Of a stretch of 64,000 bases of DNA, positions 1,258 to 38,209 are shown in pieces (within the stretch, counting starts at the first letter, position 1; every line of letters begins with the position of its first letter). The notes under the pieces are model-generated. The model did no database searches. It saw only the letters and a list, made by a program, of their open reading frames with translations, and was not told where the DNA came from. The stretch spans positions 62,001-126,000 of the forward strand of contig CANMCE010000005.1 in NCBI GenBank assembly GCA_947496235.1, in the 5' to 3' direction. The stretch comes from an uncultured Glaciecola sp. Lineage in GTDB: Bacteria; Pseudomonadota; Gammaproteobacteria; Enterobacterales; Alteromonadaceae. Position numbers and translations under genes: made by a program.

Positions 1258-2058
1258 TTATATATTTAACAATCCAAGTTCTTTATCAGAAAGCTGTTTG
1301 CCTTCTAGGATATAGATGCTTTCTTGTTCCGGCATAACATTGTTTAGTATTAAAAATTCAGTGGATCTTTCGTTGACTGAATCGGCCGGAAAAACGTAAA
1401 GATTGAATTTAGAGGAAAGCTTATTCAGTTTGCTTGCCATTGTTTGTTCAGACTGCCCTTTGCCCAAAACCAAGGCTAAATTGAATTTGCTGTCATCCAC
1501 GTCTGCAATTAAGAAATCTGAATAGCGTTGCCAAGGCAATCGGGTAGGGCTGTTATTCACTATACTTTGAATACGCTGTTCATTCGTTTGCGATAACTTA
1601 AGTTGGGTAACCCAAACTTTGCGATCAGCATACCAGTATTGCGGCACAGAGTTTGGTTTGTATTCATCGGTGATTTCTTTATTTACAGCCCATAAATCTT
1701 GATTGAACTCGTTATCGCATTTTATTTGTTTGCGCTGCATAACAGAATTGATTACAGCCTCACCCATTGGCTCATCGCAATGAAAGAAATTTTCCACTTG
1801 TCGAGCACTGGTGTTGCCTAAAATAGGTGCCCAAAAAACGTAAACGTTATAGTTATCCAAGGTTTCTTTTTCTTTAAAAGCTTTAATGCAGTACGGACAT
1901 CTTGGATCTTTGAAAGCAATCAAGTCTGGCTTATTTGCATCATAGGGATTTAGCAGAAAAGCGGCATGCTTTTCGGGATCAGGAGAAAGCTTAGGTTCGG
2001 CGTATGCTACCTGATTAACAACTGTGACGAGAATCAATACACACAACAACCTAAGCAT
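1258..2058 (-). CDS. DsbC/DsbG-like thiol:disulfide interchange protein, periplasmic
   Basis: A 266-residue secreted protein with a signal peptide (cleavage probably after AYA, residue 20) and a thioredoxin-fold domain. The active-site motif is C54-P-Y-C57 in the context KDPRCPYC. A VP at residues 138-139 fits the cis-proline loop. A second cysteine pair, C94 and C114, has spacing close to the structural disulfide of DsbC, which supports DsbC/DsbG rather than DsbA. The N-terminal dimerisation domain of classical DsbC is not recognisable, and there is a C-terminal extension of about 100 residues of unknown role. It is the last gene of the 18.2-1.26 kb operon, five bases after the coiled-coil gene, with AAAAGGA before its ATG. 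The operon's two large secreted proteins contain many cysteines, so the inferred job is forming or isomerising their disulfides. Confidence 0.75.
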   Translation of the reverse strand: MLRLLCVLILVTVVNQVAYAEPKLSPDPEKHAAFLLNPYDANKPDLIAFKDPRCPYCIKAFKEKETLDNYNVYVFWAPILGNTSARQVENFFHCDEPMGEAVINSVMQRKQIKCDNEFNQDLWAVNKEITDEYKPNSVPQYWYADRKVWVTQLKLSQTNEQRIQSIVNNSPTRLPWQRYSDFLIADVDDSKFNLALVLGKGQSEQTMASKLNKLSSKFNLYVFPADSVNERSTEFLILNNVMPEQESIYILEGKQLSDKELGLLNI

Positions 2059-2063
2059 TTCAT

Positions 2064-2453
2064 TTATCCTTTTGAATTCTTCATATCTGCAAGTGCTTTT
2101 TGTAACACTAATTGGTCATATTTTGCCATTAGCGTTCGCATTTCTTGCTTTATCTGGTCTCGTCTAGATGGATCAGATATGTTCCTATCGTATCTGGCCA
2201 TCAATACATCCATTTCTTCTTGAACTTTAATAATCTCTTCAGAGCGCTGTTCTTCAGTAAGAGAATTGAAAACTTGCTCTTTTTCAGCCACCTTGTCGAG
2301 AATATCGTCCCCTTGCGCAATTTTGTCTGCAGTTGAATGAGAGCTTTGTGTAGATTCTATTTCTAATACTTCATTACTTTCAGACTGAGTTGTCCACCAA
2401 TACGCAAGACCAGCAAAAACCAGAACAATGATTGAAGCTATAATAACTTTCAT
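2064..2453 (-). CDS. Small membrane-anchored coiled-coil protein
   Basis: I chose the ATG at 2453 (129 residues, MKVIIASIIVL) over upstream starts. The longer frame lies inside the end of the giant gene, and a GGAG ribosome site sits just before 2453 within that gene's last codons. Residues 2-20 form one membrane segment or uncleaved signal anchor. The rest is acidic and helix-rich, with heptad-like spacing from about residue 55 to 125 (for example EEQRSEEIIKVQEEMDVLMA), so a coiled coil is likely. No family is recognised. It lies four bases after the giant gene and five bases before the DsbC-like gene. It may act as a periplasmic chaperone or tether for the giant protein, which is inference only. 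Confidence 0.7.
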   Translation of the reverse strand: MKVIIASIIVLVFAGLAYWWTTQSESNEVLEIESTQSSHSTADKIAQGDDILDKVAEKEQVFNSLTEEQRSEEIIKVQEEMDVLMARYDRNISDPSRRDQIKQEMRTLMAKYDQLVLQKALADMKNSKG

Positions 2454-2457
2454 ACTC

Positions 2458-5400
2458 TTAATCTCCGGTTGTGAAATAGCGATCCCCGAAATAAGGGTTA
2501 TTGTTAGCATAATCGAAAATACGAGATCTTATGTCAACCCTATATCGAATATTTGCATCTAAGTCGGTTGCTGGCGTAAAGGTCAAAGTCGTACCATTGA
2601 CTTGGATACTGCCTTCTACCTGAGTACTTCCGTTGAAAACAGCGATGTTAGAGTGTGACGAAATGGGCTCGTTAAACTCAAGTACAATCGTGGTATCTCT
2701 AGCTACATCCGTTTCATTTTGCGCAGGAGTAATAGTTAAAAACGCTGGAGCAACAGTATCAGGAACGTCAGAAACTGAAGTTGAGAAACTCATTATTGTG
2801 GAATTCAACGAGCTACCCGTATAGTTGCACAATCCAAAGGCTACTAAATTAAAACTACTAGCAGTCGGCAATATTGCCGTTGGTGTTAGCGTAATTACCG
2901 TCCCATTTGAACTGAGCACATTATTAGTGTCTATTGTATTTAGTCCATTGCGTAGACTAATGTTATCTACACAATTAGGTGAGATAGGTTCGTCAAAAGT
3001 CACGACGAGTCTAGTGTTTACCGGCAAATCAGTTGAACCGTCTGGTACGCTAGTATTAACGACCACTGGTGGTGTATTATCGAACTGGTCACTAGTAGTA
3101 AAACGCAAACTTCTACTATTGGACAGTCTATTACCTGCGACATCGTAGAGATAAGGGCTGTAGTTGACGTAGAGGTCATATTGTTTGTTTTCACCCAGTA
3201 AAGCGTCTGGTACAAAAGTTATTGTTTGACCATCAGAAGACACCTGTCCTTGGCCAGCTGGATAAGTTCCATTTGTGCGGTTATACAGATATATACTTCC
3301 GCCAGCGGAGTAGGTAACTACAGTGGTTGAATCAATTCTATCTGACACTTTAACACTTATAATCGCATTGCGAGGCACGTTAACAGCATTGTGCAAAATG
3401 CTGTAATTCACCACGTCATCGCGAGTGAAATCAACGGTATTAGTGGTAGTGAAATCTAGTACTAAATCGTCGTCAATCAGGTTTCCAGCGATATCTACCA
3501 CATTACTTAATGTTAATTGATAAGCCGTATCTGTTGACAGTAAGTTAACCGGTCTGACTACGATGAATGAGCGCGATTCTCCGAAGCTTACATTTATAGC
3601 TGCAGCATTCCCAAACTCATCGATTAGAGTCACATCGTCCAAACTGCTTGGATCCAACGCACCGTCAAACTCTAAACGAAGAACAGTGTTCACTGGAACA
3701 ATGTCATCCGCATTAATGTTGGCGTCGACTAACACTGGCGATTGGTTATCCTCGTCTGCGCCCAGTGTGAAGGTGGTGTATCGAGTATTGGACAACGTAT
3801 TACCACTAAAATCTCTCACACTACCTACATAGATTTGATAACGTCCATTGGCTTCAGGCGCTTCTACAGGTTGTATTGAAACAGATTGATAGCTGCTATC
3901 AATAGACACAGTGAAGGCTTCGTAATTGCCAGATTGATAATCATAGAGTCTGAAATTAGAACCCACTAAAGTTGTAGGATCAATCTGCTCTGAGAAATAG
4001 ACCTTAAAGTTATAGTTAGTGGGTATTTGCGACTCATTGTTAAGAATAGACGTCGATACCAAACTAGGTCTAACTAGGTCAGGTCCGGAAGCTGTTGTGA
4101 AGCTCACCGATTGAGCGGCCATTGTGTTACTTGCATAGTCAGAAATCTCAGGAAGATTTTCCGTAATACTCGTTTCTGCATCAAAGGCAGTTAGTCGCTC
4201 ATAGGTCAAATAGGTATCGTTTTCTGAGAGCATTAGGTTAATACGACGATCAGTGCCTGTTTCGGTCGGTAAAGACAGCAGATTTACAGGTTCATCATAG
4301 AGTACACCAAATCTCGGATTGACGCCTACCTCGGTGCTGCCATCTACTGGGCTAGCACTTACTATTACTGGTTGTCTTTCGTCAGCTTCAGCTACTTCTC
4401 CTGTGGTGAAGTATAAATAGTTATTATAATTTAACGAATCCCCATCTGTATCCAGTAATAAATAACTAATGAACAAATAGTACCTAGTATCAGCTAGCAA
4501 TAAGTCATCAGGAACCACACTAAGAATGTTGTTGGTATCGTTCAACATTGCGGTAACACTTAATTGTTGACCAGTATCTTGGTTATATAGCTGCACAGTT
4601 GATGTAGAGATTGAGTTGGAATCCATGGGTTCATTAAATTGAACCATCAACTCTACGTTTGTCGGAATATTGCCAGCGTTATTGAAGGGTGCATTTGCTG
4701 TAATATAGGGTCTGGTTCCATCTAAATCGCTTTCTTCTGGTGCTGTTCGGAAATAACCGTTGTAGTAGTTAACAGCATTTCCTTGAACATCAGTAGCATC
4801 GCTCTCTAAAATAACGCCGATTCTAGCGTTTTGGGCAAACGGCGTATCTTTAATAAACTTGATGGTTTGGTTATCAGCCAGCACTTCTATGACGCCCTGA
4901 TCATCAATCAGCATGCCGTCTTCGGTGACCCGTAACGCTGATTCAAGAGAAGCAGGATCCATAGGTTCACTTAGATACAATAGCACTTCATTCACGTCCA
5001 CCCAATTTGAAGAACCATTGGTAGGTAATTGTCTTACCACTGAAGGACGACTGTTATCAGTGTAATTGGTACCTGTGACATAGGTGCTAATAAATGGGGT
5101 AATTGGATTACCTGCGAGGTCTGTAACCTCATCAGTAATAACTACACTCACTAGGCTACCCGCTGGTTTACCCACACTAAGAGTTACTTGTTCACCAGAA
5201 GCTGAGCGTGAAACAGAAGGTCGATATACTTCGCCATTTATGTATAGCGCGATGTTGTTATTGTTCAGCGTGCTAGCATTCATCGGCTCACTAAACGTAA
5301 GTACCACATTGCTATCCGGGTTAACATCAACTGTATCGGTCGCCGGAGAAATCGCAGTAACCGCAGGCGCTACATTATCAACCAAAGATTCTGTATTGAA

Positions 5401-8400
5401 ATAGTAGTTACCACTGCTTCTTACGTTTCCTGCAAAATCAAATACTTGTGAATAGATATAAACGCGATATCTAGTGTCACCACGTAATGGGTCCGTTGGT
5501 GTAAAGGTGATTCTATTACCTTCAACAGTGATATTACCCTCAACAATATAGTTTGCATCGTAATCATATAGCTGGAAGCTACTGTCATTGGCAATATTTT
5601 CGTCGAACTCTAATATGATTGCCTGATTAACACTTACATCAGTGGCGTTCGATTCAGGAATTCGAGTCTGTAATGTTGGAGCAATTGTGTCTGCAACTTC
5701 AGCACTAGTGATGAAATTCAATGTTGTTGGAGATATTAGGTTTCCGCTGTAATCACACAAACCCTCAACATTCAACTGATAAGCTGTATTCGCCATTAAT
5801 TCTTGACTAGCAATTACATTTAACCAGCGGTTACCACTTTCAATTGATACTGAAATGGGTACCTCACCGCTACCATCAGTTAGGGTGACATCTCCCACAC
5901 ATAAGCTACTAACCCTTTCGTCCAGTAATACCCGTATTCTAGCATTTACTGGAATATTTAATGATCCTTCCGGAATATTGCTATCAGTAACTGTTGGCGC
6001 TGTGTTATCCGAGGAATCACCGGTAGTAAAATAAATACTTCTATTTGGGGTCAGACGATTTCCAGCATAATCTTGAAGGTATGGACTATAGCCTGCATAC
6101 AAATAATATCTACGTAGCGGCTCAAGTTCTGCATCGGGCGTGAAGGTTACACTCATAGCATCTTCGGACAAGGTACGAGAGCCTGAAATTCTTCTGCCTG
6201 TGACTGAATCGTACAAATAGAAAGTATCTTCAAAAATACTGGTTGAATCTATAGGCTCACCGTAGCTGAAGGTAATTTCAGGGTTTAATGCCACATCAGA
6301 GCTATTAGTAGGCATGTTTGTGCCTAAGAATGCTCCCTCTCGAATATCTACCTGATCTTTGGTCGTGAAATTAATTTCTATTGGACTATCAATTTCATTA
6401 TTGGATAGATCTTTAATGCCATCAACGGTAAGCGTGATATCAGTCAATTCAGGTAATAAGGTCTTAGGTGTTACAACTAGAACAGTGTTACCTCTTTCAT
6501 ATCGAGTATTAAATGGAATTGCTTGTCCACCCATATCAACCAAGGAAATTGTTGGTTGTTCGTTGGTATCAATAGTTTCATCAAATACCAATTTAATTCG
6601 CGTGTTTGTAGGTAGACCAATTTGACCATCTTCTACCGACTGGTCTAACAATACTGGTGCAGTCACATCTGCGTTAAAACCTGTAGTAAACGACTGATAC
6701 ACACCACTTACAGAATTTCCGCTTAAATCGTATAAGTCGTAGAAGTAAGTATCGTATTGAACGCCGACCTCTAATGGTTCTTGCGGTATCATATTGACGG
6801 TTTTGCCGTCAGTATCTAGTTCAAGTTGCATGGCTAAGTAAGTACCAGTGCTTCTTTCGTATAGATAAGAATTCGACGTCATAGCTCTTGTAGGGTCTAT
6901 GCTCTCATCATAGCTTGCTGATATCTTCGTATTAACAGGGATATCAATAGCATTCACCGGAATGTTTCGAGTAATAAACTGCGGACGTAAAATATCCGAA
7001 CCATTACCTGTATTGAAAGTAGTTTGAGTATCTACACTTGCGTTACCAGCATCATCTACAAAAGACGGCGCTTCTTCGGTTATGGCTGAATTTGCCGCCA
7101 AACTGCCTAATCTCGTGTAAGTAACCAGGGTGTTATTGTCACTAAATTGAATGTTGATGCGTCGGTCTGTCCCACTTTCAAACGGAAGACTGAGTGGGTT
7201 AACTCCTTCATCATAGCGCACTGCATATTGAGCATTGGTACCCACATTTTCAGCTCCCATAAACGGACTCTGACTAATTACCTGTGGAGGTCTCTCATCT
7301 ATGACAGCGTCACTTGAGGTGTTGAAGTAATTATTATAATAGTAAACTAAGCTATCACCGTCAGTATCGAAGATTTGAGCGCCATTTATTTCAAGATAGT
7401 AGGTGCTGCTTACTTCAAGAGACTCAGCTGGTGTAATTCTTAGCTGACGTGATTGCTCGTCATAAGCGAAATTCAATGGTATCGCATCACCTATCTCTGC
7501 GTTACCGATTTCTGCGCTTGCAACATCGATTGGACAGTCGTCATCTATACAAGGTTCGTCTATACCACCGTCATCCTGAGAACTTAATACTAATCGTATA
7601 GTTTGATCAGTGAAGGTTGTATCATCCATTGGTTCATTGAACTGTAGTATCAACAGCGGGTTCAATGGAAGATTTGATTGATTATAATTTGGGTAGTAAC
7701 TTTGTAGTTGAGGTCGCACACCTACTAAATCAGACTCAGACGGCGCTGTGTTGAAATAACCACTGTAGAAGTTTGCAGGGTTACCCTCAAGGTCGGTTGC
7801 GTTAGTTTCTAAGAATATATTGATTCGAGCATTTTCACTGAAAGGCGTATCTTTAACGAATCTAACTGTCTGGTTATCTTCTAATACTTCAACTTGCCCT
7901 AAATCATCTATCAAAATACCATTTTCAGAGACGCGAACTGCTGCTTCTAATGACGCCGCATCCATAGGCTCGTTCAAGTATAAGAGAACCTCATTAATAT
8001 CGCGCCAGTTGTTAGATCCATTTGCAGGTAATTGGCGAGATACCGAAGGACGGCTATTATCGCTATTACTACTACCTGTAGTAAAGGAGCTAATGAAAGG
8101 TGCTATCGGATTACCAGATAGGTCAGTTACGTCATCGGTAATCACTACGCTTACTAGGCTAGAGGCTGGTTTGGTCATGCTTAAGGTAACTTGTTCGCCT
8201 GTTGCCGAAGCTGATACAGAAGGCTTCTGTACAACACCATCAATATAGAAGGCAATATTATTATTGTTGATAGTACTGGTATTCATTGGTTCGCTGAATG
8301 TTAGTACAACGGTCGATGTGGGGCTTACGTCGATAGCATCTTCTACAGGAGATATTGCAACTACTGATGGGGCCATTCCATCAGCTAAAGCTTCTGTGTA

Positions 8401-11400
8401 GAAATAATAGTTGCCACTACTTCTTACATTCCCAGCAAAGTCATAAACTTGAGAATAAATGTAAACTCGGTATCTAGTGTTTCCGCGTAATGGAGAATCA
8501 GGTGTAAAGGTAATCGAATTGCCGTCTACCGTAATCTCACCTTCAACTAGTAAGTTTGCATCATAGTCATACAACTGGAATGTGCTGTCATTCGCTAGAG
8601 GTTCATTAAATTCTAAACGCACACTTTGGTTAACACTTACATCAGTTTCGTTAGTGGCAGGTGAACGTGTCTGCAGTGTAGGTGCGACATTATCTACAAG
8701 GTCGCTTCCTGTTGTGAAACTAATAAAGGTCGGCGCAATTTCATTGCCACTGTAATCACATAAGCCTTCAATATTAAGTTGATAATCAGTATTGGCGGCT
8801 AAGGTTTCGTTAGCAGTAACAGTGACCCAGCGATTGCCGTTGTCTACCGATATTGAAACTGGGACGTTATTAGTGCCGTCTGTAAGAGTAATCTCAGCTA
8901 AGCATAGGCTACTGACGCGCTCATCTAGGAGGATTCGAAGTCGTGCATTTACAGGTATGTCTGAAGCACCAGATGAAATACTAGTTGTAGTAACTTCAGG
9001 TGCAATATCATCGGAAGCATCGCCTGTGTAGAAATTAATACTGCGATTGGCACGTAGGATGTTACCTGCTATGTCTTGAAAATAAGGGCTGTAACCTGCG
9101 TACATGTAATAACGTCTAGATGGTAGTAACTCTTCATTGGCTGTGAAAATAGCCTGAGTGCCATCTTCAGATAATGTGATTGCGCCTGGAACTCGTTTTC
9201 CATTACCCGAATCGTACAGATAGTAGGTATCAGGTGTTAAAGTCGTTGGATCAATAGCTTCACTGTAGCTGAAAACAATCTCTGGATTTAGTGATACACC
9301 AGATGAGTTAGAAGGGATATTGCTGCCTAAATACTCACCTGTTTGTGTATCTGACTCGGTGCCAGAAGTAAAGCCCACTACAACTTGGCTGGTATTTAAG
9401 TTGCCACCTAAATCCTGAATTTCATTAATGACTAATTGATAACTGGTGCTCGCATTTAACACAGACGTAGGTGTTAACGTAACCAAAGTTCTGTCTGTGG
9501 AGAGAGTTCTAGTAGTCTGAATTTCATTGAAATTCGTATCTGTTAGTTTGACGCCTTTAATTGTTAGTGGATTGATGGGTTCGTTAAATCTAACGTTGAA
9601 TCTAGCATTTAGAGGAACCTCTGATTGCCCCTCTTCTACAGACATACTCGTAATTTCTGGGCCCATGAAATCGTCGTCAAAGCCAATTCTAAAACTAGCA
9701 TTGGTGCTGTACATTTGATTACCGAAAAAGTCTCGGATGTTAGTAGTTAGTACCAACAAGTAGTTACCACCAACAGTTAAGGGAGCGTTAGGAACGAAAA
9801 TGATGCCGTCGTTTGATTCATTCATCGACAGAACACCTTCAACATTACCACCAGTTGTGTAGTCGTAGACATATGCAGAGGTAGCTGTAACTGTTGCTGG
9901 ATCTACTGGTTCAGACAAGAGTGCACTAATTACTGTATTAGTAGGTACGTCTTGTGCTCCGTTTACTGGATTAGAGTAGAGCAGTGAAGGTCTAACGGTA
10001 TCCACAAAATTACCAGTAGTATAGGCAAACACATAATCGTCCATCATGTTGCCGGCTTCGTCTCGCGCGCCAGCTACAATGACTTGATAAGTAGTAAAGT
10101 CACCTAATAAATCATTTGGTACAAAAGTAACCTGAGTGTTTGCTTGGGACAGTGTAACTGAACCCGCAATTACAGGTGCTCCGTCTACTAATTCAGATAC
10201 AGTAACTGTTGTATTTGAAATAGATTTAGCATCTAACGCCTCGTTGAATACAATAACGATTGGATTTGCTTCGGGAATATCCACAGCATCAATTTCTGGA
10301 TCCGTGCTTGAAACCACGGGTTTAATTGTGTCTGGGTTAGTTGGGCTAGTGCCATTATCAACTTCGTCGCCATCTTCAATGCCATCGCCATCTGAATCTG
10401 TAGATAAAGGATTAGAACCGATTTGAACTTCATAGCCATCAGTCAATCTATCGCCATCAGTATCAGGGTTATTCAGATCCGTAAGGTAGGTATTGGCTTC
10501 TTCGTCGTCACCTAAGCCATCACCGTCAGTGTCGGGTTGGATTTCAATATTGATGGTTTCACTTGTGGTTTCGTTGCCACCTAAGTCAACCGCTATTGCA
10601 TCAATATTTAGGCCTGAGTCGCTAAACGGGACAGTTAAAACCATTGAGTAAGGAGCTGAAGTATCAACAAAGACCACTGAACCATCGATTCTAAATTGAA
10701 CTTGATCAACGGCTACGTCGTCTTGAGCGTCAGCGACTATAGTCAATCGTTCACCTTCTACAACTACTTCACCTTGTCCAGGGCTTGAAATGCTAACCGT
10801 AGGCGCAACACCGTTGTTATCATTGATATCACGGTATTGTGCGATAAAGAGTTTGGTATCGCCACTTACGCCATAATCGCGGCTTACAACATAACGTTCC
10901 TCCGTTATGTAAGCATAGCTTGCATCGAGCGCTATCCCTGTTCCTGCATAATCGCCCAAGCTAGATAAATCTATGGTGCCTTGGAATATAGGATCAAGTG
11001 GGTCAAAAATATTAACAAAAGCGACTACATTCGGGAACAACTGCTCTGCATAGAAGGCAAAGTTGCGAGTTAGTGCTACATCACGAGGTACTATGCTTCT
11101 GTCACCGCCAACTATAGTAGGTGACATAGGTTGTCTAACGTCCACAACGCGATAACCTTGGGAGTAAGCTGCAACATGCGCAAAGCCATTGTCTATTACC
11201 ACGTCTTGGACAGTACCAATATTTAGACTAGCAAGACTAATTGGGCTAGAAACATCACTAATATCTACGGTGACCAAGGCTGAACCAGCGACTGCAACTA
11301 GTAAGTCTTGCTCAATAGCAACACCGCGTACGGTTCCGTTTAATCCCAGTGTAGAACGTGAAATCAGTTGTTCTGAGTTAGAAATATCAAAAATTTCTAT

Positions 11401-12927
11401 GCCTTGGTTACCATCTGCGACTACTAAGACATCTAGCATAATCGCCAAGTCTTGAGCGACGCCAGCGGTGTCGGCGACACTAATCAATTGTGGGTTTGTA
11501 ACATCAGAGACATCTACTACAACAACGCCATTTTCACCATCAGCAATATAAGCTGTATTGCCGACAACTTTAATGTCTATGGCGACACCAGCTGTATCTA
11601 GGGTTGAAACTATAGATGGAGATGTTCTGTCTGCAACATCTACAATGGTTAAGCCTTCGGCTCCAGACGCAACAAAGGCGTAGTCGCCACTAATATCAAC
11701 ATTATTCGCATATCCAGGAATCGCTATAGCTGATTGCGCGCTGGCTTCGAATTGACGGACAGAAACATTAATGTCTACAGACTTACCAGAGTTGGAGACG
11801 GTAACAACTGCGTTGCCAGCTTGGCCACCAAATATCTCTCCAGGCACAGAACCAAAACTAGCTACAGTGAGATCAGATGATGTGTAGGAAGTATTAGCGT
11901 TGCTGGTAAGATCTAAAACCGTTCCATCTATCAGTAAGCCTGAGATGGTTACTTGAGTACTGACTTCGGTATCTATGCCGTTAAAGGTCATTACCACATT
12001 TTCAGGAGTGGATGTTAAACCCACTAAAGCAGCTTCAAAGTTGGTGTCTGAAGCATCTGTTGGATCACTGCCAACGATGATTTCGATGCCGTCACTTAGT
12101 CCGTCATTATCGGTATCTGCGGATAATGGATTGGTTTCAAAGCCATCTTCTCCAGCGTTTACTTCTTCGCCGTCTAAAATACCGTCTCCATCAGTATCAG
12201 AGAGGAAAAAGTCTGTGCCTAAATTGAACTCTTCAACGGTTGATAGGCCATCACCATCCAGATCTTCAAATGCATCCACAGGGTCATTCGGATCTAACCC
12301 GTAAGCTGTTTCTATATCGTCGGGAATGCCATCGTTATCGGCATCGCCTAAACTGAAAATGTTTATCGGTAGTACCTTAGAAACACCATCTTTGCGAATG
12401 GTAACAAGGGCAAAGCCAAGACTTCTTGACGTGATCAAACCATCTGATGATACGGTGACAATAGCGTTATTTGAAGACGTGTAGTTGGTGCCTTGACTTG
12501 CTAAAGTAACATCTTGAACTGAGTCATCGCTGTAAGTGGCCGTAACCGTCAATTGAGACGTTTCATCAATGGCAAATAAGTTGAGAGGCTCTGCAATACC
12601 ATTAAGTGATAGAGACACAGGGGTTGGTGGTTGTTCGTCTATATAAAACTCACCAACATTTACACTTTGATTTTCTCTTACAGTAAAGTATTCAGTTTGA
12701 CCTGAGACAACACCATCGTCTCTTGCACAGGTCGCTCGTGCTCTAATTGCACCCATGTTGGACGGCACATTGGGTAGCGCGAAACTTCCATCTTCTTCGG
12801 CAAAGACTGTACGGTTCAACACATTGATGACACAAGTATCATCCAATTCTAATACGTCAGCCGCAAATAATGATACGGGTGAAAATAACAAGCCGACGGT
12901 TATGCACTTAAATAGACAGTTATTCAT
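2458..12927 (-). CDS. Giant secreted Ig-repeat surface protein (3489 aa)
   Basis: The protein has a signal peptide (MNNCLFKCITVGLLF...LFAAD). Next come a BIG2-like Ig domain (about 100-190) and thrombospondin type-3-like calcium motifs such as DTDGDGILD (about 193-293). A propeller of roughly six LVIVD repeats (VVDVSDVTNP, TVDISDVSSP) covers about 400-709. One Ig-like domain (about 710-793) and a second calcium-motif block (about 793-870) follow. From about 870 to the end there are roughly 24 bacterial Ig-like (Big_5-type) domains, each with a start like P-x-x-G-x-x-D-V-P-x-N and an end like LxDxxGN...FTTG. No LPXTG, PEP-CTERM, type IX tail or autotransporter barrel is visible, so the anchoring mode is unknown. 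Expected role: adhesion, cell-cell contact or matrix. The start at 12927 has an AAGG site and gives a proper signal peptide. It is gene four of the six-gene operon. Confidence 0.85.
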   Translation of the reverse strand: MNNCLFKCITVGLLFSPVSLFAADVLELDDTCVINVLNRTVFAEEDGSFALPNVPSNMGAIRARATCARDDGVVSGQTEYFTVRENQSVNVGEFYIDEQPPTPVSLSLNGIAEPLNLFAIDETSQLTVTATYSDDSVQDVTLASQGTNYTSSNNAIVTVSSDGLITSRSLGFALVTIRKDGVSKVLPINIFSLGDADNDGIPDDIETAYGLDPNDPVDAFEDLDGDGLSTVEEFNLGTDFFLSDTDGDGILDGEEVNAGEDGFETNPLSADTDNDGLSDGIEIIVGSDPTDASDTNFEAALVGLTSTPENVVMTFNGIDTEVSTQVTISGLLIDGTVLDLTSNANTSYTSSDLTVASFGSVPGEIFGGQAGNAVVTVSNSGKSVDINVSVRQFEASAQSAIAIPGYANNVDISGDYAFVASGAEGLTIVDVADRTSPSIVSTLDTAGVAIDIKVVGNTAYIADGENGVVVVDVSDVTNPQLISVADTAGVAQDLAIMLDVLVVADGNQGIEIFDISNSEQLISRSTLGLNGTVRGVAIEQDLLVAVAGSALVTVDISDVSSPISLASLNIGTVQDVVIDNGFAHVAAYSQGYRVVDVRQPMSPTIVGGDRSIVPRDVALTRNFAFYAEQLFPNVVAFVNIFDPLDPIFQGTIDLSSLGDYAGTGIALDASYAYITEERYVVSRDYGVSGDTKLFIAQYRDINDNNGVAPTVSISSPGQGEVVVEGERLTIVADAQDDVAVDQVQFRIDGSVVFVDTSAPYSMVLTVPFSDSGLNIDAIAVDLGGNETTSETINIEIQPDTDGDGLGDDEEANTYLTDLNNPDTDGDRLTDGYEVQIGSNPLSTDSDGDGIEDGDEVDNGTSPTNPDTIKPVVSSTDPEIDAVDIPEANPIVIVFNEALDAKSISNTTVTVSELVDGAPVIAGSVTLSQANTQVTFVPNDLLGDFTTYQVIVAGARDEAGNMMDDYVFAYTTGNFVDTVRPSLLYSNPVNGAQDVPTNTVISALLSEPVDPATVTATSAYVYDYTTGGNVEGVLSMNESNDGIIFVPNAPLTVGGNYLLVLTTNIRDFFGNQMYSTNASFRIGFDDDFMGPEITSMSVEEGQSEVPLNARFNVRFNEPINPLTIKGVKLTDTNFNEIQTTRTLSTDRTLVTLTPTSVLNASTSYQLVINEIQDLGGNLNTSQVVVGFTSGTESDTQTGEYLGSNIPSNSSGVSLNPEIVFSYSEAIDPTTLTPDTYYLYDSGNGKRVPGAITLSEDGTQAIFTANEELLPSRRYYMYAGYSPYFQDIAGNILRANRSINFYTGDASDDIAPEVTTTSISSGASDIPVNARLRILLDERVSSLCLAEITLTDGTNNVPVSISVDNGNRWVTVTANETLAANTDYQLNIEGLCDYSGNEIAPTFISFTTGSDLVDNVAPTLQTRSPATNETDVSVNQSVRLEFNEPLANDSTFQLYDYDANLLVEGEITVDGNSITFTPDSPLRGNTRYRVYIYSQVYDFAGNVRSSGNYYFYTEALADGMAPSVVAISPVEDAIDVSPTSTVVLTFSEPMNTSTINNNNIAFYIDGVVQKPSVSASATGEQVTLSMTKPASSLVSVVITDDVTDLSGNPIAPFISSFTTGSSNSDNSRPSVSRQLPANGSNNWRDINEVLLYLNEPMDAASLEAAVRVSENGILIDDLGQVEVLEDNQTVRFVKDTPFSENARINIFLETNATDLEGNPANFYSGYFNTAPSESDLVGVRPQLQSYYPNYNQSNLPLNPLLILQFNEPMDDTTFTDQTIRLVLSSQDDGGIDEPCIDDDCPIDVASAEIGNAEIGDAIPLNFAYDEQSRQLRITPAESLEVSSTYYLEINGAQIFDTDGDSLVYYYNNYFNTSSDAVIDERPPQVISQSPFMGAENVGTNAQYAVRYDEGVNPLSLPFESGTDRRINIQFSDNNTLVTYTRLGSLAANSAITEEAPSFVDDAGNASVDTQTTFNTGNGSDILRPQFITRNIPVNAIDIPVNTKISASYDESIDPTRAMTSNSYLYERSTGTYLAMQLELDTDGKTVNMIPQEPLEVGVQYDTYFYDLYDLSGNSVSGVYQSFTTGFNADVTAPVLLDQSVEDGQIGLPTNTRIKLVFDETIDTNEQPTISLVDMGGQAIPFNTRYERGNTVLVVTPKTLLPELTDITLTVDGIKDLSNNEIDSPIEINFTTKDQVDIREGAFLGTNMPTNSSDVALNPEITFSYGEPIDSTSIFEDTFYLYDSVTGRRISGSRTLSEDAMSVTFTPDAELEPLRRYYLYAGYSPYLQDYAGNRLTPNRSIYFTTGDSSDNTAPTVTDSNIPEGSLNIPVNARIRVLLDERVSSLCVGDVTLTDGSGEVPISVSIESGNRWLNVIASQELMANTAYQLNVEGLCDYSGNLISPTTLNFITSAEVADTIAPTLQTRIPESNATDVSVNQAIILEFDENIANDSSFQLYDYDANYIVEGNITVEGNRITFTPTDPLRGDTRYRVYIYSQVFDFAGNVRSSGNYYFNTESLVDNVAPAVTAISPATDTVDVNPDSNVVLTFSEPMNASTLNNNNIALYINGEVYRPSVSRSASGEQVTLSVGKPAGSLVSVVITDEVTDLAGNPITPFISTYVTGTNYTDNSRPSVVRQLPTNGSSNWVDVNEVLLYLSEPMDPASLESALRVTEDGMLIDDQGVIEVLADNQTIKFIKDTPFAQNARIGVILESDATDVQGNAVNYYNGYFRTAPEESDLDGTRPYITANAPFNNAGNIPTNVELMVQFNEPMDSNSISTSTVQLYNQDTGQQLSVTAMLNDTNNILSVVPDDLLLADTRYYLFISYLLLDTDGDSLNYNNYLYFTTGEVAEADERQPVIVSASPVDGSTEVGVNPRFGVLYDEPVNLLSLPTETGTDRRINLMLSENDTYLTYERLTAFDAETSITENLPEISDYASNTMAAQSVSFTTASGPDLVRPSLVSTSILNNESQIPTNYNFKVYFSEQIDPTTLVGSNFRLYDYQSGNYEAFTVSIDSSYQSVSIQPVEAPEANGRYQIYVGSVRDFSGNTLSNTRYTTFTLGADEDNQSPVLVDANINADDIVPVNTVLRLEFDGALDPSSLDDVTLIDEFGNAAAINVSFGESRSFIVVRPVNLLSTDTAYQLTLSNVVDIAGNLIDDDLVLDFTTTNTVDFTRDDVVNYSILHNAVNVPRNAIISVKVSDRIDSTTVVTYSAGGSIYLYNRTNGTYPAGQGQVSSDGQTITFVPDALLGENKQYDLYVNYSPYLYDVAGNRLSNSRSLRFTTSDQFDNTPPVVVNTSVPDGSTDLPVNTRLVVTFDEPISPNCVDNISLRNGLNTIDTNNVLSSNGTVITLTPTAILPTASSFNLVAFGLCNYTGSSLNSTIMSFSTSVSDVPDTVAPAFLTITPAQNETDVARDTTIVLEFNEPISSHSNIAVFNGSTQVEGSIQVNGTTLTFTPATDLDANIRYRVDIRSRIFDYANNNPYFGDRYFTTGD
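2461..3407 (-). repeat. Higher-order repeat unit 3 of the giant gene (partial, three domains)
   Basis: The last three domains (residues about 3176-3489) correspond to positions 1, 2 and 3 of the nine-domain unit: NYSPYLYDVAGN, then the Cys-containing domain (SPNCVDNISL and FGLCNYTG), then the domain with VARDTTIVLEFNEPIS. The protein ends at the close of this third domain. The two domains before unit 1 (about 990-1195) resemble positions 8 and 9. Confidence 0.75.
3408..6334 (-). repeat. Higher-order repeat unit 2 of the giant gene (nine Ig-like domains)
   Basis: About 2.9 kb, residues near 2199-3175. The nine domains match those of unit 1 position by position: GTNMPTNSSDVALNPE, SSLCVGDVTL, LYDYDAN, NNNNIAL, LIDDQG and TGTDRRIN appear in the same order. 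The DNA copies are clearly homologous but diverged; near 8405-8490 versus 5402-5490 they look about four-fifths identical by eye. Domain 6 of unit 1 carries a cysteine-containing insertion (EPCIDDDCPID) that unit 2 lacks. Confidence 0.8.
6335..9342 (-). repeat. Higher-order repeat unit 1 of the giant gene (nine Ig-like domains)
   Basis: About 3.0 kb, residues near 1196-2198. The nine domains have individual signatures in fixed order, from GSNIPSNSSGVSLNPE (domain 1) through the Cys-containing domain 2, LYDYDAN domain 3, NNNNIAF domain 4, the IDDLG domain 5 and the TGTDRRIN domain 7 to domain 9 ending at FTTKDQ. The same order recurs in unit 2, so the array grew by duplicating nine-domain blocks. 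Boundaries are approximate. Confidence 0.8.
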
Positions 12928-12973
12928 GATGTCTTACCTTATGCTATTGTCCTGCCACATATTGTTTAACATG

Positions 12974-13456
12974 CTAGTATCTAACATCGCCAACTCGTTC
13001 AATCTGTGGATTTATATATATTAATGTCTTAATAACTTTTTGCATGGGAACATCCAAGTAATGCGGTACTTGATGGGATGTGCCCTGCTTATCAATCAAA
13101 AAAAACTCTTGCATCATTGTATCTTGTGCTCGACGCACAGTTCTTATCTTAACTATTTGATTAACAGGTAATTCATAATCCTGATAATCAGTAAAAAACA
13201 CTTTAATACGTTTTTCATTTATGCAAATTTTAAGCTTTCGCTTTTTGGTCAAACTTGGAATTACAGCAATCAAAATTATCAATAAACTCATTCCAGCCGT
13301 GGCCGCGTATATGTATGTGTAATAACCTTCAAATGCGCCCTTGACCAAATAATCAGTAAAAAACCAAATTGAGACCGGAAACATCAAACTAATAAAAAGC
13401 ATTTTCACACCTTTATTAATCGAGTCATTCGAGAACTCAAAAAGCTCTTTTTCCAT
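12974..13456 (-). CDS. Small two-helix membrane protein with PH-like soluble tail
   Basis: A 160-residue protein with two hydrophobic helices (about 18-36 and 48-68), then a basic stretch KKRKLK and a beta-rich tail of about 85 residues. The layout, two helices followed by a compact beta domain, resembles bacterial PH-like (bPH) membrane proteins, but I do not recognise a named family with confidence. The ATG at 13456 follows the previous gene's stop by two bases, so translation is probably coupled. It is the only multi-pass membrane protein of the operon, so it could help export or anchor the giant protein encoded 46 bases downstream. That is inference. Confidence 0.65.
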   Translation of the reverse strand: MEKELFEFSNDSINKGVKMLFISLMFPVSIWFFTDYLVKGAFEGYYTYIYAATAGMSLLIILIAVIPSLTKKRKLKICINEKRIKVFFTDYQDYELPVNQIVKIRTVRRAQDTMMQEFFLIDKQGTSHQVPHYLDVPMQKVIKTLIYINPQIERVGDVRY

Positions 13457-13458
13457 GC

Positions 13459-14577
13459 TTAATTGGTAACCTTCTGCTTATAAAGCTGTGCTATTGGTGA
13501 AGTTGTTAATACCTCTCCAACAGCAGTGCCGTATTGGCTCCAATCAAGCAGGGTTTTATTGCCCTGTTTAACAAATGGCAAAGCAATCAAATATTCATTT
13601 TGTCCTTCTAGTTTCACAACTACAAACTCGTGCTCAGAATTTTTGATCCGACTAACTTCAACTAACCTAGTAGCGTCAGCAATAAGAGAAGCAAAGACCC
13701 ATGAGGTCATCATTTCACGCTTGCCATTTGCTAATGTAACTGCTGGTATAGCTGAATTAATGTTCATATTGACTGAACACTGCTCTACAAACATTTCAGC
13801 TTCTTCTTGGGTAATGGGGCCACGAGTTTCGTCCGTAGAACGACCTTTGAAAGTAGTGGCTAACAACTTATCGCATGAAGAAGGTGTATCTAGGCCTGCT
13901 GGAGTTCCCCAATTAAGCGCGCTTATGTTAGATAAAGGTTTTTTATAAACAGGATCGCTAAACCCTATCGACAAAGGATTATTTGCGTTTAGCTGCAAAC
14001 TAGGATTCACATTGACGACTGAACCCGGCGGTTGTTCACAGGTTTTTGCTTTACTGGCTCTTACACGAATTTGTTGGAAAAACCTAGATACTAAATCTTC
14101 AGGAATTTGGGGTCTTTCCATTATATTGCTAATTTGGCACAAATTTGTGCAAAGCACAGTTTCTAACAATTTGGCTTGTCCGGAAACATGATCATAATTA
14201 GCGTAAAACATGATGTAATTACCAAAGGCAAGCATTTGTTCAGGTTCAAACCCTTTTATTCCGCTATATGAAGAAAAGAGGTCGGGCATTTCCTTTAACT
14301 GCTGCTTAATGTGCACATCACTACTATCAAGCTTGGTTACTGCTCTAAAAATGTCTTTTTCAGGATCGCTTGCTGCTTTAATGTAATTGGTTAGTGCGTT
14401 TTTCGCATTGGCGGTTTTAGATTCAGCAGCGAGTGGTAAAGCCCCCACTACCGAACCATTATCTGTGTAAGGTACACACATCTGCTGAGCATAAGAAGTG
14501 CTTGAATATACAAGCACCCCAAAGACAAGTGAAAAACTCAATTTTTGAAACTTCATTTTAGGGTTTCCCTTGCTCAT
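13459..14577 (-). CDS. Secreted protein of unknown function, operon partner of the giant surface protein
   Basis: A 372-residue protein with an N-terminal signal peptide (cleavage probably after SYA, near residue 30). The start at 14577 is supported by GGAGGG ten bases upstream; the internal ATG seven codons in has a weaker site. The mature part is mostly alpha-helical in the first 170 residues and holds about seven cysteines (QMCVPY, LCTNLC, KTCEQ, SSCDK, VEQCS), which suits a disulfide-bonded periplasmic or surface protein. I recognise no domain. It starts four bases after the 1213-residue gene and ends two bases before the small membrane-protein gene. Confidence 0.7.
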   Translation of the reverse strand: MSKGNPKMKFQKLSFSLVFGVLVYSSTSYAQQMCVPYTDNGSVVGALPLAAESKTANAKNALTNYIKAASDPEKDIFRAVTKLDSSDVHIKQQLKEMPDLFSSYSGIKGFEPEQMLAFGNYIMFYANYDHVSGQAKLLETVLCTNLCQISNIMERPQIPEDLVSRFFQQIRVRASKAKTCEQPPGSVVNVNPSLQLNANNPLSIGFSDPVYKKPLSNISALNWGTPAGLDTPSSCDKLLATTFKGRSTDETRGPITQEEAEMFVEQCSVNMNINSAIPAVTLANGKREMMTSWVFASLIADATRLVEVSRIKNSEHEFVVVKLEGQNEYLIALPFVKQGNKTLLDWSQYGTAVGEVLTTSPIAQLYKQKVTN

Positions 14578-14581
14578 CTTG

Positions 14582-17500
14582 TTAACACCCTCCTATGGTT
14601 AAACCGTCGAAGACTTTGAAAGGAGGTGAAGCTGCAGAGTAAGATATTTTCTTAAATAATATTTCCATTGACGCTTGCACGTTAAATGTAATATCAATTG
14701 GATCCAATTTGGCGCCTATACAGGTATTGCCACATTCAGGTGATGACGCATAGTTAGCACCTATAAACCCTTTCACGTTCAAGGTACCACCGCCTTTAAG
14801 TTGCACTGCGACAATGGCAGGGTTGTCATTTCCGTCACAATCAGGGTTGTTACATGCTAATAAAGCAACAGTACCATCGATTTGCGGACCAAATTTACCA
14901 TCAATATTGGCATTTAGAGTAAAGTTGCCACAGTCAGGTTCTAAGCATTCCACATCGGTGAAAGATACTTGGCCTTGTGCTTTGCCGGTTATATTTGCCC
15001 CAGCCAAAGTAGCAAAGATCTCTGCTTTCAAGGTAAATCCAAGAACCGTTTTTTGCGGCATTTCAAAAATACCACCAAACCAAGGTGGTGTAACTTTCAC
15101 ATCGAATTGCACACCTGCGCCACCAATGAACTTTTTATAGGGCTTAGGATCTGCTGATTCTGGCGTACATTCTTTACAGCATTGCTCACCAGTTTCTAAT
15201 TGAATTTCTACGAAGGGTTGGAAATCCGCTTTAAACCATGGTGTGCTTGGGAAGTTATTCTGGAAGTCTGCAATAGCTTTCACTACGAAATCGGGGCCAG
15301 TACTCTCCACAACAACTTTTTGTGTACTGGCGTTACATTGATTACCACAAGTGCCGTCTTTACAGGTATAACAAGATTGTGCGTCTGTGCCATCACCGCA
15401 AGATATGCCGTCTTCATCGTTAACAATATTACCTTCACTACAGGTTTTACATTCTTGCCCTTCTTTGGCTTTTACTGCTGCTGATTCATCTTGAGGATTA
15501 AAGCCGCCACCACAAAGAAGCTCTTTACAGTCATCTGGTTGTTGCTCATTTAATGGCTGATCTTCGTCAATAACAGGTGCACCATTTTCACAAGTGCCGC
15601 ATTCATCTGGTGGCGCATCGCCATCATTAGGTTGACTGCCTGAACACAGTTCAGTTTGACAGTTACCTGGCACCTGATTTTCAGCAGGGCGGGTAGGAAC
15701 AAACTCACATCCGCCTGGGCATCCATCAGTTTTGTTGTAGCAATAGCCGCAATCGTTGCCGCCTTCACAGCAACCACTACCACCAGGTTGACTACCACAG
15801 TGCCAACCGGCTTTTACCACACCCACTCCAATGTTTGATTTAACCACAGAGCCGTCTTCACTAACGGTACCTAAACCGATAGCGACAAACTCTTCTAAAT
15901 CATGGTCGTAAGAATACATTTCAACTTGGGCACCCGGCTGATGAGCATCTACGTTTGGTAAGCTTAATCGAGCCGGTGGATCGAACTTAGTGCCCGTAGG
16001 CTGAATGGTTACGATAAATTGAGGTTGCATCCCATTCGGCGGCGCCATAGGAACTTTCGAAGCATTTACTGGTGTGACAGATACATAACCTTCTCTTGAA
16101 CCATCAGGGAAAGTGACAGAGTCTTTTTTCATTTCCAAAGCAAAGCCAGGATAAGATTCTAACTCTAAGGTAACATCACTTAAGCCAGCATAAACCGCAT
16201 TTTCAGTGTTTAACTTAACCATATAAATCGGACTACTCATTGGGTTTTCTACACCCGCTACCGTTACAAGGTTAAAAGATAAAGTAGGATATTCGCCGTC
16301 GGTGACTATGGTTGAGCCATCGACCAGCAGATGTACAGGACCAACAGGGGCTTGCTCAATTAAGAATTTACCATTTGCATCTGTAGTAGCCTGACGGTTA
16401 GTACCCTCAACTGACACTGTAGCGTTTTCAAGAGGATTATCTTGGTTATCCAATACTATGCCACTGATACTAGTCAATGCTGCTTCTTGAGGTTGAAAAC
16501 CTGTAGCAGCAAAGCCCGCGGTAAGTAAATTTGCATTTGTATTGGATGTTATTGTTGCTGTCACTCTTTGAGCGTCAAGGCCTGCAAGATAACCTAACAC
16601 CCATTCCGCCGAAGCACGACCATCTGAATCCGTTAGTGTAGTAAAGGTAGATTGACCGTTGCCGAATTTACCCCCGCCTTTTACTATCTTAAATTCTACT
16701 TGAACGTTTTCAACTACGTTAGCACCAGCATCAGTGGCAACTACTACCAAAGGTTCAGCTAGTGGTTGACCTACACCGCCGCGTTGGTTGTTACCTGAGT
16801 TCACACTTAGTTTATTTGCCGGTTTTCCTAAAGCCGTTGCGGTAAATACCACTTCACTATTCAAACCAACCACAGAGGCTCTTACTTTTTGATTTTGTAA
16901 ACCAACACGCTGGCCTATGGCAAATTGCGTAGATGCAACACCATCATCATCAGTGTGAGCAACTATTGCGCGACCTTCAAAATCTGAGTTAACACCAACT
17001 TTGCCAGACCCTTGAACAACGCGGAAAATAACTGGTTTATTGGCGATTGGCTGGTCGGTAGCTGTTACCACTTTTACCGTAAGAGGTTGAGGTAAAAGTT
17101 CTTCTATAATCGCAGATTGGCTTTGGCCGGATACCAAGACTACTTTATCAGTGGAGGGTGGCACATAATTTAAATTAAAGGTTAATTCGCTTAAATTACC
17201 CACTTGATCTGAACTTGCGACTCTGACTTGGTTAACACCTTCAGCTAGTTCGATAGTAGCAGCATAACTACGATTGCTAACAGTTGCTGCTTCATCATTT
17301 ACGGTGACTGTTACTTGGCTGTTTTCAACAGTGCCACGAACGATGTCATTGACCAATCCAGTTATAGTGACATTAGGTGTACTGACTCTTTGCCCGTCTG
17401 TGTGAGAGTCTAGTGTTAATGTTGGTGGCGTTAAGTCTAAAGAAACAGAAATGCTATCAGTCACCTGAGTAGTACCTTCAACTGCTCTAGCAACTATTGT

Positions 17501-18223
17501 GTTGTGTCCTTCTTCTAGGTCAACTGCAGCTGAAAATAAGCCAGCGTTATCTAAGCTAATAGGTACACCATTCAGAGTTAGTGTGACTGGGTTTAAATAA
17601 GGGTTGCCGTTTGCATCAGTCACTGAACCTGTAACATTAACTGGGGACACACCTAAAGTTGAAAGTGAATCCGGTGTGAGAATTTTAACAGAGAAACTGG
17701 GTGGAATAATAAGATCCTCACCATCACAATCTTCATCTACACCGTTATTAGGGATTTCTGTAGCGCCAGGATAAACCGTTGCGTCATTGTCATTACAGTC
17801 GCCTGCTTCTAAAGTGACACCATCACCGTCATTATCAGTGCCAACAGGCTCTTCGACTTCTTCAAAAGTGAAGTCATACACAAAATTATCAAAGTTAAGC
17901 TGACCACGTCTATTTTGGCGTATTTTTAAATACTGATTGGCGACTGCAATTTCGCCAGGGGTCAGATTTTTAATTGTAAGATTACCCTCAAGCACAGTGG
18001 TCATTGGGTCAGCGTTGGTAATATTGACTTTTACGTTTTGTTTAGAAGTGTCTAGATTTACCACGTGAACTTCGTATTCGATTTCGAAATCGGTTCGGCT
18101 GACCCTAGTAGCACTAATTTGCCGGAGCTCTTGGAGTTGAACTTCGGCATTTGCTTGGGTGGGTATAAGAGTGAATAAAGATAAGAATAGAACTGCTACT
18201 AGAGAGTTAACAATATTTCGCAT
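14582..18223 (-). CDS. Large secreted cysteine-rich Ig/carboxypeptidase-regulatory-domain protein (1213 aa)
   Basis: Residues 1-26 are a signal peptide (ending QANA). A MopE-type metal-binding motif follows near 130-165 ([22 protein letters not shown]). After it come Ig-like domains (about 175-350), two invasin/Big_1-like domains (about 355-585) and a carboxypeptidase-regulatory-like domain (about 590-650). A segment ending [10 protein letters not shown] (about 660-850) is typical of the N-terminal part of large Rhs-like surface proteins. Then a cysteine-rich stretch (about 850-1010, near 20 Cys) leads to a beta-rich C-terminal domain that ends exactly in Cys. About 30 cysteines lie in the C-terminal third. 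No YD repeats or toxin domain follow, so it is not an Rhs toxin. It is the first gene of the operon, probably a surface or secreted structural protein. Confidence 0.8.
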
Positions 18224-34375: not shown

Positions 34376-34495
34376 TCGGTAAACCTCCATTACTGGGAAC
34401 AATTTTAGCTTCAGCCAGTAACCGTTGTGTGTTGTGTTAACTATTCAATTTGTAAGATTGTTATTTTTCATAACTGAACGATGAAATATCGCTAA

Positions 34496-34524
34496 ATATT
34501 ATTGTATGATTTAATCGGTGTCAA
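34496..34524 (-). promoter_or_regulatory. Promoter of the TonB receptor gene
   Basis: On the minus strand a perfect -35 TTGACA (34519-34524) is followed, after exactly 17 bases, by a -10 TAATAT (34496-34501). The predicted leader is about 114 bases. Confidence 0.6.
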
Positions 34525-34531
34525 CAGCCTG

Positions 34532-34548
34532 TGTTAAAACTATTAACA
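34532..34548. promoter_or_regulatory. Candidate operator upstream of the TonB receptor promoter
   Basis: The perfect inverted repeat TGTTAA-N5-TTAACA starts 7 bases upstream of the receptor -35. The same half-site recurs at 34435-34440 and 34653-34658. The region is AT-rich, so chance is not excluded. Confidence 0.4.
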
Positions 34549-34667
34549 ATTATTTACATTTGTCTCGATTGTAGCGGTGAAAATAATAAAACGTAATGGC
34601 ATAATGAATTAAATAATTATAAAAAACAGATAGATATAAAATTTTAATCGAATTAACATTACAATAG

Positions 34668-34675
34668 TGTTAACA
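34668..34675. promoter_or_regulatory. Candidate operator upstream of the GH43 promoter
   Basis: The palindrome TGTTAACA ends 5 bases before the GH43 gene's -35 and shares half-sites with the repeat near the divergent receptor promoter. This suggests one regulator for both directions. No regulator gene is in the locus. Confidence 0.4.
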
Positions 34676-34680
34676 ACAGA

Positions 34681-34709
34681 TTTACATAGTATATACTCGA
34701 TGTTATATT
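34681..34709 (+). promoter_or_regulatory. Promoter of the GH43 lipoprotein gene
   Basis: -35 TTTACA (34681-34686), a 17-base spacer and -10 TATATT (34704-34709) lie 38 bases before the ATG, with GAGG at 34736-34739 as ribosome site. The rest of the 34376-34747 intergenic stretch is AT-rich and holds no gene. Confidence 0.55.
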
Positions 34710-34747
34710 AAATTAGTCATACAATATTACTTTGATGAGGTTTAACC

Positions 34748-38116: not shown

Positions 38117-38138
38117 GGTTAATTTAAGTTAAATTATG

Positions 38139-38165
38139 CCGGCATCTAAAAGGTGCCGGTTTTTT
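38139..38165 (+). terminator. Intrinsic terminator after the GH43 lipoprotein gene
   Basis: CCGGCATCT (38139-38147), an AAA loop and AGGTGCCGG (38151-38159) form a nine-pair stem with one G-T pair, followed by six T. It lies before the second GH43 gene, so read-through to that gene is at least reduced. Confidence 0.85.
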
Positions 38166-38209
38166 CATTTTTACCCATTTTTAAATTAAGTATTAGCATA
38201 GGAAACATT

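Follow-up and report, generated by a model that had tools for sequence, protein, structure and literature searches.

Several described systems share parts with the locus reported here, which lies in a 64,000-nucleotide stretch of DNA (the window) from an uncultured Glaciecola sp. (GCA_947496235.1, contig CANMCE010000005.1, positions 62,001 to 126,000) and comprises the minus-strand genes P1 to P6 together with P8, P9 and CYT next to them. Bacterial teneurin-like YD/RHS proteins, in the accessible part of their description (PMC6425310), carry immunoglobulin (Ig)-like repeats followed by a TTR-like (CarboxypepD_reg) domain, as does the head of P1; their NHL/YD shell is unmatched in window P1, which has a cysteine (Cys)-rich tail instead. 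Unlike these proteins, window P1 also adjoins a giant Ig-like partner (P4), a cytochrome (CYT) and a thiol enzyme (P6). Giant Ig-repeat fibrillar adhesins, according to the available portions of two accounts (PMC10619420, PMC8877628), have tandem Ig-like repeats over thousands of residues, as in P4, which differs in its N-terminal LVIVD/TSP3 module and in that neither a surface anchor nor an adhesive tip was recognized with Pfam or NCBIfam. CYT resembles MtrC/F-like or c554-like multiheme cytochromes, with Pfam matches over cut-off to both Cytochrome_C554 and MtrC/F and five CXXCH motifs, but differs in a membrane-like N-terminus with four invariant His and in that full-length matches occur only beside P1 in the order sample described below. 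Additional Dsb-type enzymes serving one envelope structure form a further parallel, TrbB of the F plasmid being a Dsb enzyme tied to one structure. A second example is a Salmonella DsbA, printed as SrgF in the accessible text of PMC5403849, which is needed for plasmid-encoded Pef pili. In the loci described here, in contrast, two enzyme families share one kind of locus and the presumed substrates are not pilins. The Salmonella enzyme is, we believe, SrgA.

The locus, conserved but uncharacterized, has the look of a self-contained cell-envelope system. Its best account, which we consider probable, is an envelope system with exported P1 and P4 and a private thiol oxidoreductase. This account is based on gene content, gene order, co-occurrence, the presence of two enzyme families and Cys patterns, and within it we infer export, substrates, assembly, surface location and electron transfer. 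Specifically, P1 and P4 would be exported via the Sec pathway, and a locus-specific thiol oxidoreductase would make or correct their disulfides in the periplasm; in the window this enzyme would be P6, encoded right behind the putatively anchored P5, and elsewhere a DsbA-type protein with its own coiled-coil-like stretch. The folded P1 and P4 may then assemble into an elongated envelope or surface structure, with CYT and P9 as part of the same system providing it with a redox function or redox partner. The locus connects the giant Ig-like proteins of marine, methane-oxidizing and other bacteria with a defined, recurring gene set that includes a multiheme cytochrome and a thiol oxidoreductase of its own. 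Among the papers listed from the open-licence literature none describes such a gene set, which is weak evidence as several searches matched far more papers than were listed.

The six co-directional genes, with the lengths and the gaps of 4, 2, 46, 4 and 5 bases given by the first-pass annotation of the window, match the open reading frame (ORF) coordinates, and the gene-order comparison that it had proposed found the homologues syntenic, not scattered, in several other genera and families. Its six-gene system stands as regards these six genes and is too narrow in extent, its coordinates omitting P9, CYT and P8: the locus exceeds six genes, with P9 and CYT usually divergent and often a PEP-CTERM-like P8. 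The samples used were 118 relatives, 394 genomes of the order (the order sample) and named genomes scanned with the P1 head.

The thiol enzyme of the locus

P6 (1258..2058, minus strand; 266 aa, thioredoxin fold, CPYC) matches Thioredoxin_2 over the Pfam cut-off, and its top Foldseek matches are DsbC (E 3e-4, TM 0.37 by query and 0.65 by target). The DsbC/DsbG-like label given to it earlier is borne out for the catalytic domain, with a similar fold and a CPYC or CGYC active site in 6/6 sequences. A second Cys pair (Cys94 and Cys114) is invariant in the six and may correspond to the structural disulfide of DsbC. The label fails beyond that domain, and P6 is no true DsbC/DsbG because it has no DsbC_N dimerization domain (PF10411), its model entering the thioredoxin fold directly, and because Val, not Thr, precedes the cis-proline (Val-Pro in 6/6 P6 sequences vs Thr-Pro in wild-type DsbG and Vibrio DsbC chains). 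The residue at this position matters in Dsb enzymes. P6 further differs from DsbC/DsbG in carrying an extra C-terminal alpha/beta region and in that its strong matches in the order sample are confined to this locus.

An enzyme census covered 37 genomes with P1 and then P4 (in G092, P1 and then an unmatched giant ORF). An enzyme is present in 26, three were read past the P4 end without one and eight are undecidable because their sequence stops within P4 or shortly after it (L036, L049, L055, L056, L059, L061, L069 and L070). The enzyme is of P6 type in 17 genomes and of DsbA type in nine, and both together were seen in no locus. P6 lies 3' of P4, or of P5 and P4, in the window, G020, G024, G059, G061, G085, L034, G174, G118-G124 and G143 (no P5 was recognized between P4 and P6 in G121), and in Microbulbifer harenosus (L040) a P6-type gene stands just before P4, with a profile E of 3e-28 and, in Pfam, only a sub-threshold DSBA match. 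Loci with a DsbA-type gene have it between P1 and the giant gene (G058, G092, L041, L042, L044, L057, L067 and L074) or, in one case (L071), 3' of P4, as confirmed on the contig. Among the undecidable loci, L061 has a P5-type gene following P4, with the contig ending 141 bases later, and a genome-wide P6 search gave no match in L056, L061, L069 and L070.

Both kinds of enzyme are thioredoxin-fold proteins. The DsbA-type proteins of G058 and L041 match Thioredoxin_4 and DSBA over cut-off, the one from G058 also reaching the Thioredoxin_2 cut-off, and the P6 and DsbA-type profiles aligned only across 18 columns at the CXXC (probability 27%), which points to different families. The P1 tree kept 52 of 59 rows (seven short rows were dropped), with 26 rows lacking an enzyme label; supported branches on it force two changes for each enzyme label. 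The P1 proteins of two Microbulbifer species are sisters (100/100), yet these species have different enzyme types, both encoded directly before P4. The DsbA-type proteins start with a coiled-coil-like stretch, which P6 does not have and its neighbor P5 does, so that P5 may play for P6 the part that this stretch has in the DsbA-type proteins. The exchange of two enzyme families within one kind of locus amounts to a natural experiment on the requirements of such an enzyme, and it makes the need for a private disulfide enzyme beside DsbC directly testable. The dedicated thiol-disulfide enzyme postulated from the window alone is strongly supported by comparison, namely by the family swap and by the ordinary DsbC, a gene with DsbC_N, present elsewhere in the genome in 17/17 P6 genomes; it does not extend to every locus, three having no enzyme. 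The association between locus and enzyme is strong, not universal.

P6 and the DsbA-type proteins might instead chiefly serve CYT, keeping its CXXCH thiols reduced, and not P1 and P4. CYT has five CXXCH and accompanies most loci, and the missing DsbC dimerization domain of P6 would suit such a role. The gene positions speak against it, as every enzyme gene seen at a locus sits in the P1-P4 group and none in the P9-CYT group; moreover, the 44 kb read of G058 include a DsbA-type enzyme yet neither CYT nor P9, L071 has the enzyme 3' of P4 but lacks CYT over 8 kb of upstream sequence, and the L038 locus, conversely, includes CYT but no enzyme. P6 was also unmatched by CcmG-type families in Pfam and NCBIfam. 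Service to CYT is thus quite unlikely to be the chief task of these enzymes, and P1 and P4 remain the preferred candidate substrates.

The large Ig-like proteins P1 and P4

P1 (14582..18223, minus strand; 1213 aa) has a signal-peptide-like start followed by a MopE-like motif, Ig-like domains and a carboxypeptidase-regulatory (TTR-like) domain; Glucodextran_B and carboxypeptidase-regulatory domains exceed the Pfam cut-off and Big_1 falls just under it. Ig-like domains were found by Pfam in both P1 and P4 (Big_5 in P4), in agreement with their first description as large Ig proteins. Copper binding via the MopE-like motif was rejected as a general feature, the motif being absent in the L012 and L015 homologues. 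The Cys-rich tail (14585..15811, minus strand; 409 aa) starts at about residue 805 and holds 30 of the 32 Cys of P1 from residue 809 on, with 16 Cys columns invariant among 14 aligned sequences. In the tail model (mean predicted local distance difference test score, pLDDT, 64) the second half forms long beta strands, the pLDDT per ten-residue block being 63-87 from residue 161 on and mostly <50 before residue 140. Its fold has no confident Foldseek match (best E 0.024, TM <=0.15 among the 50 matches listed), and matches to pore proteins were taken as noise from long hairpins.

The conserved head of P1 (15788..17701, minus strand; aa 175-812) is common to relatives that run into YD/RHS repeats, as it does in three other loci (L060, L061 and L065), whereas neither NHL nor RHS was matched by window P1 in Pfam or NCBIfam. 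The teneurin-like head is thus used with and without YD repeats. The tails of these three loci and of L066, in which only three YD/RHS motif matches were found, have a Cys content of 0.1-0.8%, as against 5-10% in most other loci, with lower percentages also in L034, L046, L055, L058, L067 and L069. In the YD locus L061, P1 lies directly before P4 with no gene between, and the P5-type gene is kept. The shared head suggests another explanation, in which P1 to P4 form a contact-dependent delivery or competition system and P1 would be a protein of YD/RHS type with a different tail in place of the shell. The variation of the P1 tails and the continuation of the same head into YD/RHS repeats in the three loci, perhaps also L066, fit this, as does the likely role of bacterial teneurin-like proteins in delivery into other cells, as put in the accessible part of PMC6425310. 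Nevertheless, no toxin family was matched above cut-off among the window proteins (Pfam, NCBIfam), no immunity gene was recognized in general scans, in which no search was aimed at immunity genes, and a conserved cytochrome would be unexpected in such a system, so that delivery or competition appears unlikely and an envelope system with its own thiol oxidoreductase is preferred.

P4 (2458..12927, minus strand; 3489 aa) combines a conserved N-terminal module, with a Cys pair 35 residues apart, with LVIVD, TSP3 and 24 Big_5 stretches (Pfam). After residue 30 it has ten Cys, at 32/67, 1342/1390, 1793/1798, 2343/2391 and 3319/3367. P4 contains a long-range repeat, about 1000 aa in length (offset 1001; the best 300 residues are 72% identical), which accounts for part of this spacing. 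The Cys count after residue 30 is even in 7/7 P4 sequences counted (8 to 14 in the other six), and the first Cys pair is 35 apart in 32 of 39 P4 starts, the search pattern having picked up no second Cys, or neither Cys, in the remaining seven.

Conservation and distribution

Among the 118 relatives, P2 was found in three genomes (window, G020 and G058), the P1 tail in five (window, G020, G058, G059 and G092) and P6 in 12, with E<1e-30 in six (window, G020, G024, G059, G061 and G085); P1 and P4 adjoin P6 in the last five of these. In the order sample, a strong P6 (E<1e-50) occurs in five genomes, all within the six that have a strong P1 head, the sixth being G092; the other 15 P6 matches are weak (8e-9 to 8e-4). 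In the five genomes with both, P6 and the P1 head share a contig, with P6 some 11-14 kb away on the 3' side, and the overlap of the two has a hypergeometric probability of about 8e-11, uncorrected for relatedness. The P1-head scan of named genomes gave 51 loci, with six genomes giving more than one; four of the 51 duplicate genomes already counted (L027 is G061, L029 is G020, L062 is G059 and L064 is G085). Hosts include Alteromonas, Catenovulum, Gayadomonas, Pseudomaricurvus, Grimontia, Microbulbifer, Methylomonas, Methylobacter, Paraglaciecola and Parvularcula.

The order P1..P4-(P5)-P6, or a close variant, was found in the window, G020, G024, G059, G061, G085, G174 and L034, as well as in eight named-genome loci read to the 3' end. 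Downstream DNA of at least 3.5 kb was available for 36 P1 loci, and all but L052 and L068 (34 of 36) carry the P4 N-terminal module in it. Where at least 5.5 kb upstream could be viewed, P9 was present in 24/33 P1 loci and CYT in 23/33; one CYT missing from that view (L038) lies just past the stretch. The middle genes vary, with no P3-like gene in G024, none between P1 and P4 in L034, and two shorter genes at the place of P2 in G061, G085 and Catenovulum.

Several observations weigh against an envelope system with a private thiol oxidoreductase. L038 (Grimontia, with a 23-Cys P1 tail) has neither enzyme through P9, CYT and beyond, L058 (11-Cys tail) matches neither the P6 nor the DsbA type over about 10 kb beyond P4, and L045 has neither enzyme in the roughly 2.4 kb that follow P4. 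Neither enzyme profile is matched anywhere in the genomes of L036, L049, L055 and L059, whose contigs, however, end inside P4; conversely, L034 and L067 have the enzyme despite a Cys-poor P1 tail (6 and 8 Cys). Beyond residue 30, P1 has an odd number of Cys in G059 (27) and G085 (25). Furthermore, no surface anchor or outer-membrane exporter was recognized for the locus proteins, P2 and P3 show little conservation and in some loci are split or absent, and P9 and CYT are out of view in 9/33 and 10/33 P1 rows, respectively.

The distribution is also patchy. With a strong P1 head in only 6/394 genomes of the order, and with none of the 12 other genomes of the genus having P2 or the P1 tail and a single weak P6 match among them, the locus could be an island of unrelated genes held together by horizontal transfer with no common function. 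This is very improbable, as several families have the same members, on a P1 tree whose branches are long, and the enzyme has been replaced within the gene group; a common envelope function is favored. An antiporter adjoining the locus was found in 6/12 other genus genomes (E<1e-100); none of five other flanking proteins tried was found in the six stretches around it, and an insertion is not demonstrable.

Individual genomes show further variation. Contig C15 of G092 (L131) bears a decayed copy of the locus, in which a remnant of CYT (104 aa) and a fragment of P1 (548 aa) are left, and an ORF near it, seen in L022, is transposase-like by eye; another contig of G092 carries P1, the DsbA-type gene and the giant ORF unmatched by P4 profiles. 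Pseudomaricurvus alcaniphilus (L028, L072) has neighboring P1 and P4 copies on one contig, and the single P6 found lies where the array ends. L033 and L037 are contigs of a metagenome-assembled genome (MAG) labeled Deltaproteobacteria, and their P1 proteins fall among gammaproteobacterial ones on the tree, reflecting either transfer or a binning error.

CYT and the remaining genes

CYT (22840..24906, plus strand; 688 aa, a membrane cytochrome with five CXXCH) has an N-terminal hydrophobic region with four invariant His (49, 67, 116 and 130), which may be read as two b-type hemes, and a conserved C-terminal part. Five relatives share 41-55% identity with the window copy and have five CXXCH. Full-length CYT (E<1e-200) occurs in 6/394 order genomes, namely the five with P1 and P6 and G347, in which CYT, P9 and P1 are on one contig. 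In G061, CYT and P9 are on their own short contig and P1 begins at a contig edge, so that adjacency is likely. More distant CYT relatives are found in G082, G106 and G339, and no P1 or P4 match was obtained in 16 kb before and around the CYT-like gene of G339. The conserved cytochrome is the least explained part of the locus. A more specific picture, put forward tentatively as a possibility we hold to be rather doubtful, is an undescribed envelope machine joining a quinone-fed membrane cytochrome to a giant Ig-like structure, with a Cys-rich partner folded by a system-specific oxidoreductase, interchangeable P1 tails (YD/RHS or Cys-rich) and an enzyme slot open to different families.

The position of CYT varies. 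The Oleiphilus MAG G124 (L114) has two CYT genes just 3' of P6 on the opposite strand, none being seen over 8 kb of sequence upstream of P1 (L032), and its locus is rearranged. In Grimontia celer (L038, L142) P4 is short (1098 aa), and P9 and CYT lie 3' of P4 on the same strand. P9 (19315..22821, plus strand; 1168 aa, FG-GAP plus HEAT) is divergent from P1 in the window; an FG-GAP (CRTAC1) gene lies between hydrazine-synthase-like genes in the accessible part of another report (PMC12758564), as a parallel only. P8 (18402..19052, minus strand; 216 aa) has PEP-CTERM-like relatives. P8-type genes were recognized 12 times among the 51 loci, eight with a PEP triplet near the end, and TIGR02595 (PEP-CTERM) was over cut-off in six of nine P8 relatives scanned, window P8 being unmatched; an exosortase is encoded in the window genome.

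P2 (13459..14577, minus strand; 372 aa, six Cys, secreted as judged by eye), P3 (12974..13456, minus strand; 160 aa, with two hydrophobic stretches by eye) and P5 have no Pfam family above cut-off, and a SID-1 match of P5 and a retron match of P3, both below cut-off, were rejected. P5 (2064..2453, minus strand) has about 129 aa from the ATG at 2453, which is four bases after the P4 stop, in accordance with the gap given above, and ends 5 bases before P6; the longest ORF is 2064-2510 (148 aa). By eye it has a hydrophobic N-terminus and a coiled-coil-like remainder, with no Cys. Promoter and terminator scans of the window locus were no better than shuffles. Further along the window, at 31586-39172, a TonB-receptor-like ORF and two secreted-type, carbohydrate-active-looking ORFs were recognized by eye.

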